Source: a virus
Strand: one strand, 5' to 3'
IMG/VR virus record: IMGVR_UViG_3300025127_000082
Span: 1-40,421 of that record
Length of the DNA stretch: 40,421 bases
The position numbers and the translations under genes are program-made. A model generated the notes under the pieces. It was given only the letters and a program-made list of their open reading frames with translations, was not told where the DNA came from and searched no databases. Positions 34,999 through 40,151 of the stretch are shown here, one piece after another; positions within the stretch are counted from its first letter, which is position 1, and each line of letters opens with the position of its first letter.

Positions 34999-35033
34999 AA
35001 CAAATATACATACATACCTTTGTATGGTTTGTT
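34999..35033 (+). other. Small hairpin in the intergenic region 34996-35201
   Basis: CATAC (35013-35017) pairs with GTATG (35022-35026) around a CTTT loop, and AACAAA (34999-35004) with TTTGTT (35028-35033) outside it, with an 8-nt bulge on the 5' side. It follows directly on the last oxygenase stop. It lacks a T tract and is followed by CCGAAGGG, which can pair in part with CCTT in the loop, so two alternative folds exist. It may be an mRNA 3'-end stabiliser or part of a small RNA. The AT-rich composition makes chance possible. Confidence 0.35.
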
Positions 35034-35075
35034 CCGAAGGGTATATTTAATCGTTAAAGGGATCAAAAATGTAGG

Positions 35076-35108
35076 AGTCTTACTTGTTTCAAAGTGAGAC
35101 TTTTTTTT
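35076..35108 (+). terminator. Rho-independent terminator after the oxygenase operon
   Basis: AGTCTTACTT (35076-35085) pairs with AAGTGAGACT (35092-35101) over ten positions with one G-T pair, a six-base loop, and eight T (35101-35108). It is a strong terminator for the upstream operon. Confidence 0.9.
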
Positions 35109-35143
35109 ATATGGTAACACATGGTCAGTTAACATAGTGGCAC

Positions 35144-35168
35144 ACCCCCTTACACAGGGGGTTTTTTT
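35144..35168 (+). terminator. Terminator half of terminator-promoter composite 1
   Basis: ACCCCC (35144-35149), loop TTACACA, GGGGGT (35157-35162), followed by a run of seven T to 35168. It sits only 35 nt after the first terminator. The loop also provides the -35 element of the promoter that follows. Confidence 0.8.
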
Positions 35169-35178
35169 ATGCTATGAT
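35150..35178 (+). promoter_or_regulatory. Sigma70-like promoter of composite 1 (helicase operon)
   Basis: TTACAC (35150-35155), a 17-bp spacer and TATGAT (35173-35178), preceded by TGC (extended -10). The predicted start lies near 35185, leaving a leader of about 17 nt with no good ribosome binding site. The same module, with two compensating base changes in its hairpin, recurs at 39919-39953. Confidence 0.75.
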
Positions 35179-35201
35179 ATGTACATATCAATGAGTTATT
35201 C

Positions 35202-36380
35202 ATGCAACTAAGACCCCACCAAGAGCAAGCAATTAAAGCGATGATTGACAATGACAAAGGTCAGGTTATCGTTCCTACAGGTGGTGGTAAGACTATCTGT
35301 ATGATACAGGATGCCAAGAGAGAGTTTGAGAGTGAAGCAGTAAAAACTATTGTAGTTGTTGCACCTCGTATTCTATTGGCAAACCAGTTGTCAGCAGAGT
35401 TCTTAGAGTTCATCACTAATGTTAAAGTAATGCACGTTCATAGTGGAGAGACTCATCACTTCAGCACAACTAAGGTTGATGCGATCAGAGAGTTCAACTT
35501 CCATTGTGCCAATGATGGTCACAACCAGTTGATCTTCACAACATATCATTCACTACACAGAATTGCTGAGAGTAATATTGTTGTTGATACTATCTACTTT
35601 GATGAAGCACACAACTCAGTTCAGAAAAACTTTTTCCCTGCTGTTGAGCATATATCAACCAGTATCTTCACAAGAGCATACTTCTTTACTGCTACACCAA
35701 AGCACAGTTTGACACCTAGCAAAGCAGGTATGAACTTGACAAAAGTATATGGCAATGTTATTTGTCAAGTACCTGCACCCAAGTTGGTCAAGCAGGGTTA
35801 CATACTACCACCAAAGGTCGAAGTTTACAAGTCAAGAATACTTGAGAAGGATGAATTGGTTGCTGACAGAGACAACGAGCAAATGGTTGAAGCGATTGAC
35901 AATCTTGACAAAGATAAAGTATTGATATGTGCCAAGTCAACAAAACAGATTGTTGCACTTGTATCACAGACTGACTTTGTTCAACAGTTGGCAATTCGTG
36001 GTTATTCTTGGATGATGATTACATCTAAGACAGGTGCCATGATTGACGGAGAGAAGGTGGACAGAGAGACATTCTTTGATACACTTAATGAGTGGGGTAG
36101 AAACGACAAGAAGTTTGTTGTACTGCACCACAGCATACTCTCAGAAGGCATCAATGTCAATGGTCTGGAAGCAGTATTGTTTATGAGGTCTATGGATTAC
36201 ATAGGTATCAGTCAGACTATTGGTCGTGTCATTCGTAAGGGCAATGCTGACAAAGTGTTCGGACTTGTCTGCATCCCTGTCTATTCTAAAGTTGGTATCT
36301 CTACTGCTAAAAAGGTCGAAGCAGTTGTTGATGTGATATTCAATCAAGGTCAAGCGGCAACTTCAGTAATTACAAGATGA
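35202..36380 (+). CDS. SF2 DNA helicase, type III restriction Res-like (392 aa)
   Basis: The motifs are clear and in order: Q-like LRPHQEQAI at the N-terminus, Walker A VPTGGGKT (residues 24-31), motif II DEAH (134-137), motif III TATP (163-166), LSEGINV (motif V, 314-320) and QTIGRVIR (motif VI, 339-346). It is a compact two-domain SF2 helicase of the group often labelled 'type III restriction res subunit' in cyanophages, and distinct from the UvsW pattern I know. It probably acts on phage or host DNA in recombination, repair or nuclease partnership. By hand count of sampled 60-nt lines, GC is about 35-45%, above much of its surroundings. It heads an operon with a PD-(D/E)XK protein and a methyltransferase, and its stop overlaps the next start (ATGA). 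Confidence 0.9.
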   Translation: MQLRPHQEQAIKAMIDNDKGQVIVPTGGGKTICMIQDAKREFESEAVKTIVVVAPRILLANQLSAEFLEFITNVKVMHVHSGETHHFSTTKVDAIREFNFHCANDGHNQLIFTTYHSLHRIAESNIVVDTIYFDEAHNSVQKNFFPAVEHISTSIFTRAYFFTATPKHSLTPSKAGMNLTKVYGNVICQVPAPKLVKQGYILPPKVEVYKSRILEKDELVADRDNEQMVEAIDNLDKDKVLICAKSTKQIVALVSQTDFVQQLAIRGYSWMMITSKTGAMIDGEKVDRETFFDTLNEWGRNDKKFVVLHHSILSEGINVNGLEAVLFMRSMDYIGISQTIGRVIRKGNADKVFGLVCIPVYSKVGISTAKKVEAVVDVIFNQGQAATSVITR

Positions 36381-36943
36381 TTAACACACCATTTTTATCT
36401 GAATTTTACACAGTTTTTCCTGCTCCCAACGCAGATGATTTCATATCAACTATTGATAAAATGTGTGAAACTAAACAAGTTGACAATGAATTTTTTAGTT
36501 GGGGGAAGCATTGTAAGATTGACAGAATACCTGTTTTATGGAAAGACTTTTATGATTTGTACAAACCAAGTTTAGAAATTTTATCTAAAGATTTCAAAAA
36601 ACTTTTCGAGTATACAATGTATAACCCTTGGATAAATTTATATAAAAGAGGTTATTTTCAAGAGATTCATGACCATGCAGGGCATGAAATATCAAGTGTA
36701 TTCTTTGCAAATGATGGTGTTGATTTTGGTAAATTTTTTTTCATGGATAGAAATTCATGTAATTTTTCAGATGATTATGAGGATTTTATATCCTATTCAA
36801 ACACTCATGAACCAATTATAAAAAAAGGAGATATAATTTTTTTCTCAAGTCACATTCTACATGGGGTCAGTCCTCATGAGAGTGATGAGATAAGAAAAAC
36901 TGTCTCAGTAAATTTTAACATTCATTCGGTGGTAACAACATGA
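36377..36943 (+). CDS. Fifth 2OG-Fe(II) oxygenase (188 aa)
   Basis: NPWINLYKRGYFQEIHDHAGHEISSVFFAND (residues 83-113) resembles the proximal part of the PF13759-type 'putative 2OG-Fe(II) oxygenase' family (here IHDHAG, with H98/H100 as candidate ligands). The distal segment KKGDIIFFSSHILHGVSPHE (149-168) has H162, and RKTVSVNFN has R173. It is related in pattern to the gene at 32295 but lies inside the helicase operon, overlapping both neighbours by 4 nt. Its base composition is lower in GC than the helicase in sampled lines (two of three at 23-25%), which suggests separate acquisition. Substrate unknown. Confidence 0.8.
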   Translation: MINTPFLSEFYTVFPAPNADDFISTIDKMCETKQVDNEFFSWGKHCKIDRIPVLWKDFYDLYKPSLEILSKDFKKLFEYTMYNPWINLYKRGYFQEIHDHAGHEISSVFFANDGVDFGKFFFMDRNSCNFSDDYEDFISYSNTHEPIIKKGDIIFFSSHILHGVSPHESDEIRKTVSVNFNIHSVVTT

Positions 36944-37491
36944 ATTTCATTGAACAATTACAAACAAGAGTGGATTGGAATCGAGTATTTGGAGTTGTTG
37001 ACTCTTTGTATTCTGATAAAGGATTCACATCAAATGCTGATAACTTTGCAAGGGCAACTATGGTAGAGAAAGCTTTGGATAAGTTTTCAGATATTGATAG
37101 AGTTGACCAAAATGGTTATGACTTTGAGTGGGAAGACCAGAAGATTGAACTTAAGATGGGTAAGAATCTATTTTACAAAAGAAAAGACCCAAATGCAACT
37201 AAGAAGTTTAAAGTCAAATCATTTCTAAGTGAGACAAAAACTGTTGAAGATTTTAAACAAGTCAGTACATTTGATTGGTTACTTGTCATTGATCTTACAG
37301 CAAGAAGAGTTGTAGTTGTTGAAGACGCTCATGCCCGAACATTATACCAAGAAGGTGCTGATGGTGCTATGATAGAATTAAAACATGGAGATTACATTGA
37401 GTGTAATATTGGAGTTGTCAATCCGATACTACCACCAATTAATCTATCATACTTGTATCAACAAGCAGATCAACATTTCTTAAATTTTTAA
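36940..37491 (+). CDS. PD-(D/E)XK nuclease-like protein (183 aa)
   Basis: Residues 39-75 contain the nuclease core pattern: a helix with a possible supporting Glu (ATMVEKALDKF, E43), then GYDFEWEDQKIELKMGK with D61 and the E70-x-K72 pair, i.e. D-X8-ExK. The next strand pair (FDWLLVIDLTARRVVVVE, residues 109-126) fits the restriction-endonuclease core (ExK strand, then helix, then strand). Outside this core I see no family that I can name. It may be a phage recombination nuclease or a restriction-like enzyme. It follows the oxygenase by a 4-nt overlap and is one base upstream of a small membrane protein. The nuclease call is from motif reading only. Confidence 0.6.
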   Translation: MNFIEQLQTRVDWNRVFGVVDSLYSDKGFTSNADNFARATMVEKALDKFSDIDRVDQNGYDFEWEDQKIELKMGKNLFYKRKDPNATKKFKVKSFLSETKTVEDFKQVSTFDWLLVIDLTARRVVVVEDAHARTLYQEGADGAMIELKHGDYIECNIGVVNPILPPINLSYLYQQADQHFLNF

Positions 37492-37492
37492 A

Positions 37493-37711
37493 ATGAAACC
37501 ATTAGTTGTATCAAGAATCACAGGTTCAATCTTGATTATTGCAGCATATTTTGTTATACTACATGTATCAGCATTTTATGGTGCGATCATGCACGTTATT
37601 GCCGATATATGTTGTATTCCATTTTACATACAACATGAACAATGGGATGTAGTAATCATGCTTACATTTTTGATGATTATTGCAACAAGCAAAGTAGCAA
37701 TTCTATTATGA
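37493..37711 (+). CDS. Small membrane protein (72 aa, two helices)
   Basis: A 72-residue protein with hydrophobic segments at residues about 9-31 (RITGSILIIAAYFVILHVSA) and 50-70 (DVVIMLTFLMIIATSKVAIL), separated by a short Cys/His-containing loop (IMHVIADICCIPFYIQ), which could itself be partly membrane-embedded. It has no signal-peptide cleavage site. The start follows the previous stop by 1 nt, and its stop overlaps the methyltransferase ATG (ATGA). It is probably an inner-membrane protein made early in infection. I recall similar small proteins in other cyanophages with no assigned function. Confidence 0.75.
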   Translation: MKPLVVSRITGSILIIAAYFVILHVSAFYGAIMHVIADICCIPFYIQHEQWDVVIMLTFLMIIATSKVAILL

Positions 37712-38670
37712 GAGATACCATACTCTATGGGGATTGTCGAGAGACACTCAAACAATTTGATGAACAGGCAAGGACTTGCATCACATCCCCACCATATTAT
37801 GGACTTCGTGACTATGGTGGAGAAGAGAATCAAATTGGTCAGGAACAAACACCTGACGAATTTATAGATCAATTAATCACAGTATTCAAGGAGGTTCGCA
37901 ATGTGCTTAGAAATGATGGAACTTGTTGGGTTAATCTTGGCGACAGTTACTATAATTACAGACCTGGAAAAGGACAAGGATTGGTTAAACAAAGTGTCTC
38001 AAATACAAAGCAAGACCTACCAGATGTGTGTCCTCGCAGAGGAAATCGAATCGAAGGACTCAAAGAAAAAGACCTTATCGGAATCCCTTGGCAATTCGCT
38101 TTCGCAATGAGAGCAGACGGATGGTATCTCAGACAGGATATAATATGGCACAAACCAAATCCAATGCCAGAGAGTGTTAAGGACAGGTGTACGAAGTCGC
38201 ACGAGTACATATTTTTGTTTAGTAAGAATAAAAAATACTATTACGATAATGAAGCAATTAAAGAACCCGCAAAAGATTGGGGAACAAGAGATCGAACAAA
38301 AGGAAAATACCATAACGAAGGAACAGGACTACAACCACATTCGGGACTTACAAAAAGCTATCCAACAAAGAATAAACGATCTGTCTGGTCAGTAACCAAT
38401 AAACCATATCGTGAAGCACACTTTGCAACATATCCACCTGACTTAATTGAACCTTGCATATTAGCAGGGAGTGAGAAGGGAGATATAATACTTGACCCAT
38501 TCATGGGTAGTGGTACTACAGCAGCAGTCGCAAAGGCACTTGGTCGTGATTACATAGGATGTGAACTACATGAGGACTATGGTAACTTAATTCAGAAGAG
38601 AGTGCAAGAATATCAACCAGTTCAGAAAGTGGCACAAGAACCCACCATAAACATATTAGATATTATATAA
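37708..38670 (+). CDS. DNA methyltransferase, beta class (SPPY motif, 320 aa)
   Basis: The catalytic motif IV TSPPYYGLRDYG (residues 26-37) comes first and the AdoMet-binding motif I DPFMGSGTTAAVAKALGRDYIGCEL (from residue 263) last, the beta-class order of amino-methyltransferases. SPPY is typical of N4-cytosine enzymes but also occurs in N6-adenine ones, so the modified base is not decided. The middle (160-235) is the target-recognition region and is unique. I chose ATG 37708 because it overlaps the upstream stop (ATGA); an upstream in-frame start at 37642 would lie deep inside the previous gene. It would modify phage or host DNA, probably to evade restriction. It ends the helicase operon. 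Confidence 0.9.
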   Translation: MRDTILYGDCRETLKQFDEQARTCITSPPYYGLRDYGGEENQIGQEQTPDEFIDQLITVFKEVRNVLRNDGTCWVNLGDSYYNYRPGKGQGLVKQSVSNTKQDLPDVCPRRGNRIEGLKEKDLIGIPWQFAFAMRADGWYLRQDIIWHKPNPMPESVKDRCTKSHEYIFLFSKNKKYYYDNEAIKEPAKDWGTRDRTKGKYHNEGTGLQPHSGLTKSYPTKNKRSVWSVTNKPYREAHFATYPPDLIEPCILAGSEKGDIILDPFMGSGTTAAVAKALGRDYIGCELHEDYGNLIQKRVQEYQPVQKVAQEPTINILDII

Positions 38671-38692
38671 TAAGAATATACAAAGGAGGATT

Positions 38693-38830
38693 ATGAATCT
38701 TGAAGTCTCACTCTATGTAAATGGTAGAGTATTTACTGAATCAGTTATCGCAAGGAATTTTGATGAAGCAAGACAGGTTGCACTGGCAAGAAATCCAAAC
38801 GCTACAGTAGTGAGTGTCAATGCCAAGTAA
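38693..38830 (+). CDS. Small conserved hypothetical protein (45 aa)
   Basis: A 45-codon gene with a perfect AAGGAGGA ribosome binding site (38683-38690), starting 22 nt after the methyltransferase. The protein has one strand, one helix and one strand: LEVSLYVNGRVFTESVIA, RNFDEARQVALARNPNATVVSV. The ending ARNPNATVVSVNA is a pattern I recognise from many short marine phage proteins, function unknown. Its last codons overlap the next ATG. Confidence 0.8.
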   Translation: MNLEVSLYVNGRVFTESVIARNFDEARQVALARNPNATVVSVNAK

Positions 38831-39041
38831 TTATCAAAACTTTTATCCAACTACATTTCCATCTTTGTTAGACCCTAAGATTGGTCAACCAAGTGGATAT
38901 GTAACCAAAGATGGCATGTGGGCAGCAGTGCCATCAAATGGAAGAAAGTTTGCTATTGTGCATAATGGTCAGATAGTTCACTTTTCAAGAAATTTTGAAT
39001 GTGCAATGTCCTATATAAAAAAGGGATTAAAGAAAAAATGA
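38820..39041 (+). CDS. Small hypothetical protein (73 aa)
   Basis: A 73-residue basic protein. It begins MPSNYQNFYPTTFPSLLDP, then has a VTKDGMWAAVPSNGRKFAIVHNGQIVHFSRNFECAMSYIKKG block that looks like a small beta sheet plus helix. I chose ATG 38820 over GTG 38814, as it overlaps the preceding stop region. Its stop overlaps the next ATG. I do not recognise the family. Confidence 0.65.
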   Translation: MPSNYQNFYPTTFPSLLDPKIGQPSGYVTKDGMWAAVPSNGRKFAIVHNGQIVHFSRNFECAMSYIKKGLKKK

Positions 39042-39313
39042 GAGATCAGGCATCCATAGGAGAGGAAACACCCTCTGTTAAGTATCAAAGGGCATTAGAC
39101 CTTTTTACTGAATCTGTTATGAAACCAGATCACGATTTGCGTGGTTGTGCATATAATCAAGGATGTTATGAGGATTTGATGGAAATTAGAGAGCATGTTT
39201 TAGAATATCTAAAGACATTAAAAGAAGTCACATACCATACTAATCCTGATGAGAGTGACATGATAGAGACAGAGAAGTTAATAGAGACAAAACCATTGAG
39301 CAAATGGAGATAG
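39038..39313 (+). CDS. Small acidic, Cys-containing hypothetical protein (91 aa)
   Basis: A 91-residue protein that is mostly helical, with GCAYNQGCYEDLMEIREHVLEYLKTL near residues 37-62. The two Cys (CAYNQGC) are five residues apart and could form a metal or disulfide pair, but no other ligands stand out. I chose ATG 39038, which overlaps the previous stop (ATGA) and follows an A-rich GGGATTAAAG stretch; the upstream ATG at 38999 would start inside the previous gene. Function unknown. Confidence 0.65.
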   Translation: MRDQASIGEETPSVKYQRALDLFTESVMKPDHDLRGCAYNQGCYEDLMEIREHVLEYLKTLKEVTYHTNPDESDMIETEKLIETKPLSKWR

Positions 39314-39342
39314 TTGACGTAAATAATTTTTTGAGGTATCAT
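39314..39342 (+). promoter_or_regulatory. Sigma70-like promoter before the 84-aa gene
   Basis: TTGACG (39314-39319), a 17-bp spacer, TATCAT (39337-39342), starting directly after the stop at 39313 and 20 nt upstream of ATG 39363. It would allow separate transcription of the 84-aa and CP12-like genes. Confidence 0.6.
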
Positions 39343-39362
39343 AAACTTAACCGCAAATTAAA

Positions 39363-39617
39363 ATGTCTAACTACAAAAACTATTCGTTAAAACATTTAAG
39401 CGATTGTATTCAAGATTGTATTCAATCTGAAGCAAGACCACATGAAATATACGAGACAATTAGAAACACAGTTGTCGAGACAATAAACTATCACGAGATT
39501 TGTTTAAGAGATTCTAAAGATTTACTATCTTTATTATCTGGTTCGAGTGGTGGTAATTGGATTCCCACAAAAACACCTATTGAAAGACTACACGCTGAGA
39601 TTGAAAAAAATAAATAG
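39363..39617 (+). CDS. Hypothetical protein (84 aa)
   Basis: An 84-residue, mainly helical protein: KHLSDCIQDCIQSEARPHEIYETIRNTVVETINYHE, then a short linker GSSGGNWIP, then a charged C-terminal helix (PIERLHAEIEKN). Pattern SARPHEIYE.I...V and NYHE..... are recurrent in small cyanophage proteins to my recollection, without known role. A promoter lies just upstream; the CP12-like gene follows 17 nt later. Confidence 0.65.
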   Translation: MSNYKNYSLKHLSDCIQDCIQSEARPHEIYETIRNTVVETINYHEICLRDSKDLLSLLSGSSGGNWIPTKTPIERLHAEIEKNK

Positions 39618-39634
39618 TACAGGAGGTAACTATT

Positions 39635-39898
39635 ATGACAATTAAACATGATTTAGACCACGAAGTACATCTTGACCCCAAAGATGGAAAGGAACATATC
39701 AATCATGGTATGTTAGAATATAAGAAGTCAGAACTCGAAGAAGTACATGCAGATTATGAATATGCACATAAAGATGATGTGGTAGAACCAAATGATGGTA
39801 AAATTAATGATTGGCATACTCGTCATGAGGATAAACATTTAGAAATATACTGTGATAACCATCCTGACGCGTTTGAGTGCAGAGTGTACGATGATTAA
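39635..39898 (+). CDS. CP12-like protein with only the C-terminal half (87 aa)
   Basis: The last 15 residues, CDNHPDAFECRVYDD, match the C-terminus of CP12 (consensus CDENPEA.ECR.Y.D), with C73 and C82 spaced by eight residues as in CP12. CP12 is a redox-controlled, disordered linker that shuts off the Calvin cycle by binding GAPDH with its C-terminus and PRK through its N-terminal part. Here the N-terminal Cys pair and the AWD-VEEL core of CP12 are missing; residues 1-60 are instead His/Asp/Lys-rich and look disordered. Cyanophages encode CP12 and are thought to use it to redirect host carbon flux to the pentose phosphate pathway. A good AGGAGG ribosome binding site precedes the ATG. The function as a GAPDH-only binder is inferred. 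Confidence 0.7.
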   Translation: MTIKHDLDHEVHLDPKDGKEHINHGMLEYKKSELEEVHADYEYAHKDDVVEPNDGKINDWHTRHEDKHLEIYCDNHPDAFECRVYDD

Positions 39899-39918
39899 GA
39901 CACTTAAATAACTGTCAC

Positions 39919-39942
39919 ACCCTCTTGCACAGAGGGTTTTTT
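39919..39942 (+). terminator. Terminator half of terminator-promoter composite 2
   Basis: ACCCTC (39919-39924), loop TTGCACA, GAGGGT (39932-39937), then six T to 39942. It terminates the CP12-like gene 21 nt after its stop. Compared with composite 1, one C-G pair is replaced by T-A at matching stem positions. Confidence 0.85.
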
Positions 39943-39953
39943 ATTGCTATAAT
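39925..39953 (+). promoter_or_regulatory. Sigma70-like promoter of composite 2 (ArdA gene)
   Basis: TTGCAC (39925-39930) in the terminator loop, a 17-bp spacer, TATAAT (39948-39953) preceded by TGC (extended -10). The predicted start near 39960 lies just before the structured leader. Confidence 0.8.
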
Positions 39954-39962
39954 AAGTACAGG

Positions 39963-40019
39963 GAAACAAAATCATCTGCAGTCATGGATAATGCCTCTGC
40001 AGTAACTGATTTTTGTTTC
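39963..40019 (+). ncRNA. Structured 5' leader upstream of the ArdA gene
   Basis: GAAACAAAATCA (39963-39974) pairs with TGATTTTTGTTTC (40007-40019; one extra T bulges). Inside, CTGCAG (39976-39981) pairs with CTGCAG (39997-40002) around a 15-nt loop holding ATG codons at 39984 and 39991. The element begins about 3 nt after the predicted transcript start. It is long and well paired for an AT-rich leader. It is not a tRNA and does not match the glutamine-riboswitch patterns I know from cyanobacteria. A regulatory leader or small RNA is possible. Confidence 0.55.
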
Positions 40020-40151
40020 TCGCATCCAATTATCCCCTTATTCCTATGGCAAGACTTTCTACAGGACAAATGCAAGAACATACACAGGAACTTCTTGACC
40101 ACTATAATGAACTCTTTAACTGGGAGTACAACGAAATGTGTGATTTCATAG
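39984..40151 (+). CDS. Possible leader ORF (55 aa) overlapping the ArdA start
   Basis: An ATG in the loop of the leader hairpin opens a 55-codon frame (MDNASAVTDFCFSHPIIPLF...), ending with TAG at 40149-40151, about 105 nt inside the ArdA gene in another frame. It has no Shine-Dalgarno and I do not recognise the product. The first half is more protein-like than the second, where it shares DNA with ArdA. It may be a regulatory upstream ORF or a chance frame. Confidence 0.25.
   Translation: MDNASAVTDFCFSHPIIPLFLWQDFLQDKCKNIHRNFLTTIMNSLTGSTTKCVIS

Follow-up and report, generated by a model that had tools for sequence, protein, structure and literature searches.

The 40,421-base virus record IMGVR_UViG_3300025127_000082 (hereafter the window) comes from a T4-like cyanophage, and tail and baseplate genes fill most of its length. 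From 35.2 kb on it carries genes for a uvsW-type helicase, a 2OG-Fe(II) oxygenase and a DNA methyltransferase, along with small genes; the top matches of the helicase, at 60-73% identity, are in P-SSM2, S-SKS1, and other cyanophages. On metagenomic contigs, the genes considered here are open reading frame calls. In this last part of the window we found three copies of a composite element, starting at 35124 (unit 1), 38616 (unit 3), and 39899 (unit 2), all on the plus strand, with none before 35 kb. The composite consists of a dyad, G(A/C)CA(G/C)TT-N4-AA(C/G)TG(G/T)CACA, followed by a 28-30-nt spacer and a -10 hexamer, TATAAT. No Rfam family was found in the window.

An initial annotation had described units 1 and 2 as a repeated terminator-promoter composite, made of a GC hairpin, a T tract and an extended -10, with the hairpin loop serving as the -35 box. 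Both units are present exactly at the positions it claimed, and the 17 nt between TTRCAC and TATRAT and the TGC ahead of the -10 are likewise as described. The loop was given as TT(A/G)CACA, which is correct as a sequence, but an inner T-A pair closes it and leaves an unpaired part of 5 nt (TACAC or TGCAC). By folding, the stem-loop of unit 1 (A-CCCCCT-TACAC-AGGGGG-T) has an energy of -12.0 kcal/mol and that of unit 2 (A-CCCTCT-TGCAC-AGAGGG-T) one of -9.9 kcal/mol. In the window, only units 1 and 2 matched the 23-base pattern of stem-loop plus T run with three mismatches allowed, and 100 shuffles gave no match. The C-G to T-A change between the two stems, which had been offered as a sign of selection on the hairpin, is real but thin as evidence, being a difference between two paralogous units. 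Compared with TTGACA, the -35 candidates TTACAC and TTGCAC match at 2/6 and 3/6 positions, respectively; read at 16 nt (TACACA and TGCACA), they match at 4/6, counted by eye. Several features had been missed: the separate terminator at 35073-35104, the dyads of units 1 and 2, and the whole of hairpin-less unit 3 (Table 1).

Table 1. Coordinates of the promoter units, their neighbouring features, and complete palindromes in isolate genomes.
Feature	Record	Position	Strand	Remarks
Separate intrinsic terminator 5' of unit 1	Window	35073..35110	+	13-bp stem (35073-35104), then T run; also kept in L372 and L373
Unit 1 dyad	Window	35124..35144	+	GTCAGTTAACATAGTGGCACA; matches 15/17 consensus positions
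Unit 1 hairpin and T run	Window	35144..35168	+	Stem 35144-35162, loop TACAC; within 28-nt spacer 35145-35172
Unit 1 weak -35	Window	35150-35155	+	TTACAC
Unit 1 extended -10	Window	35170..35178	+	TGC TATGAT
uvsW-type helicase gene	Window	35202..36380	+	Downstream of unit 1, as its putatively driven gene
DNA methyltransferase gene	Window	37708..38670	+	TAA stop (38668-38670) falls within unit 3 -10
Unit 3 dyad	Window	38616..38636	+	ACCAGTTCAGAAAGTGGCACA; within methyltransferase coding sequence
Unit 3 spacer and -10	Window	38637..38671	+	29-nt coding spacer without hairpin, then TATAAT (38666-38671)
Gene upstream of unit 2	Window	39635-39898		Stop codon directly 5' of unit 2 dyad
Unit 2 dyad	Window	39899..39919	+	GACACTTAAATAACTGTCACA; 17/17 consensus positions
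Unit 2 hairpin and T run	Window	39919..39942	+	Stem 39919-39937, loop TGCAC
Unit 2 weak -35	Window	39925-39930	+	TTGCAC
Unit 2 extended -10	Window	39945..39953	+	TGC TATAAT; predicted start is the GGG from 39961
Candidate structured RNA element	Window	39961-40021		Also in L003, L013, L226, L231, L245, L272, L402, L412, L413, L452, L453, L466, L468, L478, and others
Complete palindrome	P-SSM2	66591-66614		Matches 66591/66596
Complete palindrome	S-PM2	20116-20139		Matches 20116/20121
Complete palindrome	S-SSM7	42981-43004		Matches 42981/42986
Complete palindrome	S-SSM7	50837-50860		

A dyad at a fixed distance from the -10

In related sequences, we noticed a box, A(C/G)TG(G/T)CACA, lying just 5' of the hairpin at a constant distance from the -10. 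When sites were collected on this right half-box and the -10 only, a left half-site emerged unselected, with up to 1.9 bits, and the gaps to the -10 peaked at 28-30 nt. The two half-sites were spaced by 4 nt in 12 of 13 cases from nine T4-like cyanophage isolate genomes. Among the 105 strong dyads of these nine isolates, TATAAT followed at a gap of 29, 30 or 31 nt in 25, while other single distances accounted for 3. Judged by these comparisons, the constant part of the unit is the upstream dyad at a fixed distance from the -10.

The composite is restricted to phages in the genomes surveyed. P-SSM2 has 22 matches, S-PM2 has 16, and the 40-kb window has 3; a reversed-pattern control gave zero matches in all isolates tested, and no dyads were found in T4 and RB49. 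A host origin of the promoter was rejected, since the full composite occurred in 0 of 292 cyanobacterial genomes and none of its 28 matches among ~85,000 species was titled Synechococcus or Prochlorococcus. A Calothrix genome of 10 Mb had six occurrences of the dyad alone. Several copies of the composite were also present on two contigs, NHFO01000063 and NHFO01000061 (loci L346, L356, and L369), of a metagenome-assembled genome labelled Flavobacteriales TMED113. These contigs with clustered composites may be cyanophage DNA binned into that assembly.

Isolate genomes contain complete 24-bp palindromes of the form TGTG-N-CA(C/G)TT-N4-AA(C/G)TG-N-CACA, in which either strand matches the operator; this would be expected of a site common to divergent promoters. 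Some of them are flanked by -10s on both sides (P-SSM2 66606+/66599-, for example).

The spacer hairpin is optional

For hairpin statistics, unit sets were chosen on the dyad and the -10 only; an earlier set, chosen on CACAG in the loop, was biased. A good perfect stem lay in the spacer of 28% of units, compared to 6% after dinucleotide shuffling. By folding energy, spacer hairpins were present in 44% of units versus 17% of shuffled sequences, leaving over half of the units without one.

The promoter of uvsW can be followed across orthologous loci. Its dyad and -10 were present in 73 of 77 loci, with gaps of mostly 28 or 29 nt, and the spacers between them were unrelated: some had no hairpin, and in others the hairpin loop was TTACACA, TACACA, GAAA or TTCG. 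The upstream genes of 63 uvsW loci belonged to 29 families, and the spacers differed widely. The hairpin had been taken to define the unit, a view not supported by the nearest relatives of the window, L372 and L373 (UvsW 94% and 88% identical, respectively), in which the dyad is identical to that of the window base for base and the 28-nt spacing and the -10 are kept without a hairpin. In the window as in L372 and L373, the uvsW unit is closely preceded by a strong separate terminator. Set against spacer hairpins, such separate upstream terminators were detected in 2 of 31 cases, too few for a conclusion, by a simple rule that overlooked the L373 terminator visible in the sequence. A stretch ATACATACCTTTGTATGGTTTGTTC(C/G)G, at 35000-35070 of the window, is also found in L373, L375, and L380, relatives with another upstream gene; it had no significant fold.

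Hairpin presence tracks the end of the upstream gene

Among non-redundant uvsW loci, 26 of the 33 whose upstream gene stops ahead of or inside the dyad carried a hairpin, compared to 1 of the 14 whose upstream gene reads through the spacer (Fisher p=6e-6). In these 14 read-through loci, the upstream stop is the TAA inside TATAAT in 8 and the next codon in 6. The same relation was observed for annotated genes of P-SSM2 (7/7 versus 1/5, p=0.01) and in the wider unit set (59/119 versus 7/32, p=0.005). Hairpins were less frequent beside a divergent upstream gene (29%) than beside a codirectional one (58%). The window displays both kinds of spacer, with gene 39635-39898 ending right before the dyad of hairpin-bearing unit 2 and the methyltransferase gene stopping inside the -10 of hairpin-less unit 3.

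At least five T in the seven following bases were found after 56% of central hairpins, compared to 6% at comparable positions of hairpin-less units, and units 1 and 2 both combine a stable stem with a U run. In a seven-sequence set sharing one register, which illustrates covariation, two-sided changes affected 6 of 7 stem pairs, a count reached by no shuffle; this supports the earlier claim of conserved hairpin pairing. Together, the relation to the upstream stop, the U-tracts, and the covariation suggest that transcripts of the upstream gene end by intrinsic termination, and most likely the spacer hairpins are intrinsic terminators. The terminator role assigned initially is supported, as is the recurrence of the terminator-promoter composite in related phages. 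The further suggestion that each module insulates a cassette holds in part, but not for the third unit of the window, which lacks a hairpin and overlaps its upstream gene.

A -35-like hexamer with at least four matches at 16-18 nt was found in 31% of the class, compared to 10% of shuffled sequences, a weak enrichment that was alike with and without a hairpin. Such a hexamer lay at or overlapped the loop in 21 of the 62 central hairpins, whose stems were unrelated; TTGACA, TTGACC, and TTTACA were among these hexamers. The geometry first described for units 1 and 2 is thus a recurrent sub-type. Spacer hairpins centre ~18-20 nt before the -10, and because they lie in a 28-30-nt spacer, their loops land at the -35 position automatically. 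A loop -35 as the defining feature was rejected, as orthologous loops vary (GAAA, TTCG, TTACACA) and L372 and L373 lack the hairpin altogether.

A candidate RNA element downstream of the promoter

A candidate structured RNA element follows unit 2 and recurs elsewhere; its closing stem, GGGAAACAAAA...TTTTGTTTCTC, is fixed and 11 bp long. Across 19 non-redundant examples, the frame GGGAAACAAAA...TTTTTGTTTCTCGCAYCC closes the stem around an interior of ~36-98 nt that is widely different between phages, with AAGTCC in 10/19 and AAATCC in 3/19; 41 viral contigs carry the element with a short interior. The closing stem is conserved and the interiors fold just slightly better than shuffled sequences. 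No Rfam family was found for the element, which is a candidate structured leader or small RNA. A dyad promoter lies upstream of 16 of the 19 examples, and in 11 the 5' GGG of the element begins 7 nt after the -10. This is indirect evidence that the GGG marks the transcription start. In P-TIM68 (L226 12799-12994), a strong manA RNA (RF01745) lies ~1.1 kb ahead of an RNA element with the conserved frame.

A proposed class of pre-late promoters

Based on these sequence comparisons, we think it likely that the units belong to a class of pre-late promoters of T4-like cyanophages, in which a dyad stands 28-30 nt before the -10 and the spacer is reused as a terminator or a gene end. A putative dimeric DNA-binding protein would most likely bind the dyad and bring host-type RNA polymerase to a -10 that is often extended and accompanied by a weak -35. 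For this, the dyad would have to sit 28-30 nt upstream of the -10, and because that distance would be obligatory, the spacer would be spare length. An upstream gene that stops ahead of or inside the dyad would usually be followed by an intrinsic terminator in the spacer, ending its transcript just short of the new promoter. For a longer upstream gene, the spacer would encode the C-terminus, and the stop codon would be the TAA in TATAAT or the codon after it. Some units may exploit the placement of the loop at the weak -35 position. A more specific version of this proposal is that these are phage-specific, activator-dependent promoters in which the dyad replaces a strong -35, the spacer is systematically double-used, and a putative undescribed regulator is phage-borne or supplied by the host; we consider the arguments for and against it evenly balanced.

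Some of our observations weigh against the proposed class. No exact TATAAT lies within 60 nt of 77 of the 105 strong isolate dyads, suggesting that some -10s are divergent or that some dyads have another role, and few dyads were found in S-SM2, P-TIM68, and S-CAM9. Hairpins that run up to the -10 and have no good U-tract are also numerous; as terminators, these would be weak. The seven sequences used for covariation were picked for their common register and so illustrate pairing rather than prove it.

Three other explanations were considered. The one closest to the initial annotation, a strong terminator joined to an ordinary host sigma-70 extended -10 promoter with an incidental upstream box, appears unlikely: extended -10s and a weakly enriched -35 do exist, and early genes of S-PM2 and Syn9 have been suggested to use sigma-70-type promoters (PMC2984593), but the dyad is better conserved than the -35, keeps its distance constant, and occurs in hairpin-less units too, and the composite is missing from all of the cyanobacterial genomes searched. 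The hairpin might instead be a promoter part, either a cruciform extruded in supercoiled DNA that presents the loop -35 or a structured operator, which would account for its kept pairing. The excess of hairpins over shuffles, the cases in which a hairpin without a T run has its 3' arm abutting the -10, and the -35-like hexamers in about a third of central hairpin loops would all suit such a role. We nevertheless regard it as very unlikely, given that the hairpin is missing from over half of the units, those of L372 and L373 with their unchanged dyad and spacing among them, and that the dependence on the upstream stop codon and the lower frequency beside divergent genes fit termination rather than initiation.

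The least probable explanation, in our view, is that the dyad is not an activator site but a repressor operator or a recombination or shuffling site, similar to the exchange points ascribed to the promoter-early stem-loops (PeSLs) of T4-like phages. The units do lie at junctions, with many different upstream gene families in the uvsW loci, and a passage in PMC4503421 cites reports that PeSLs mediate shuffling in T4-like phages. Neither a repressor nor an exchange site, however, would need to hold 28-30 nt to the -10 while the intervening sequence is wholly replaced. Exchange could also follow from sharing of the unit, and the activator and exchange readings are not exclusive.

Comparison with known systems and significance

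The nearest known kind is the PeSLs, which were reportedly described by Arbiol et al. in 2010 and Comeau et al. in 2014. PeSLs, which are cited in a passage of PMC4503421, reportedly pair an early-type promoter with a stem-loop terminator in one compact unit that recurs in the genome where neighbouring genes vary. The cyanophage units are similar in that promoter and stem-loop terminator directly adjoin in the gap between genes, in units 1 and 2 and in many relatives, and in that several copies are present per genome. They differ in having no constant stem-loop, as the hairpin is absent from more than half of the units and from the nearest relatives; their constant part is instead the dyad at a fixed distance from the -10, which is absent from T4 and RB49. 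The cyanophage stem-loop also lies inside the promoter spacer and is optional, the alternative being that the coding sequence of the upstream gene ends there.

T4 middle promoters, which have a MotA box ~12 nt upstream of the -10 in a phage that encodes MotA and AsiA, share a weak or absent -35 and an upstream protein site at a fixed distance from the -10. The cyanophage site is, however, a dyad 28-30 nt upstream of the -10 rather than a box at ~12 nt. Doron et al. are said to have reported in 2016 a novel regulatory element of early genes in the T4-like cyanophage Syn9; the dyad may be this element. Like intrinsic (Rho-independent) terminators, the spacer hairpins have a G+C-rich stem, a short loop, and a T run after a gene end, but they are placed within the next promoter, between its -10 and a putative activator-type site, and that spacing sets their length.

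Cyanomyoviruses have been reported to lack motA and asiA, and the way in which T4-like cyanophages manage early and middle transcription in the absence of both proteins has been called unclear (PMC2984593). A short operator at a fixed distance from the -10 would provide a promoter marker usable in any cyanophage genome. The dyad would predict starts to the base and could serve as a probe for finding the regulator. Reuse of the spacer would show how ~55 bases of a compact genome can accommodate a terminator together with a gene end and a promoter.

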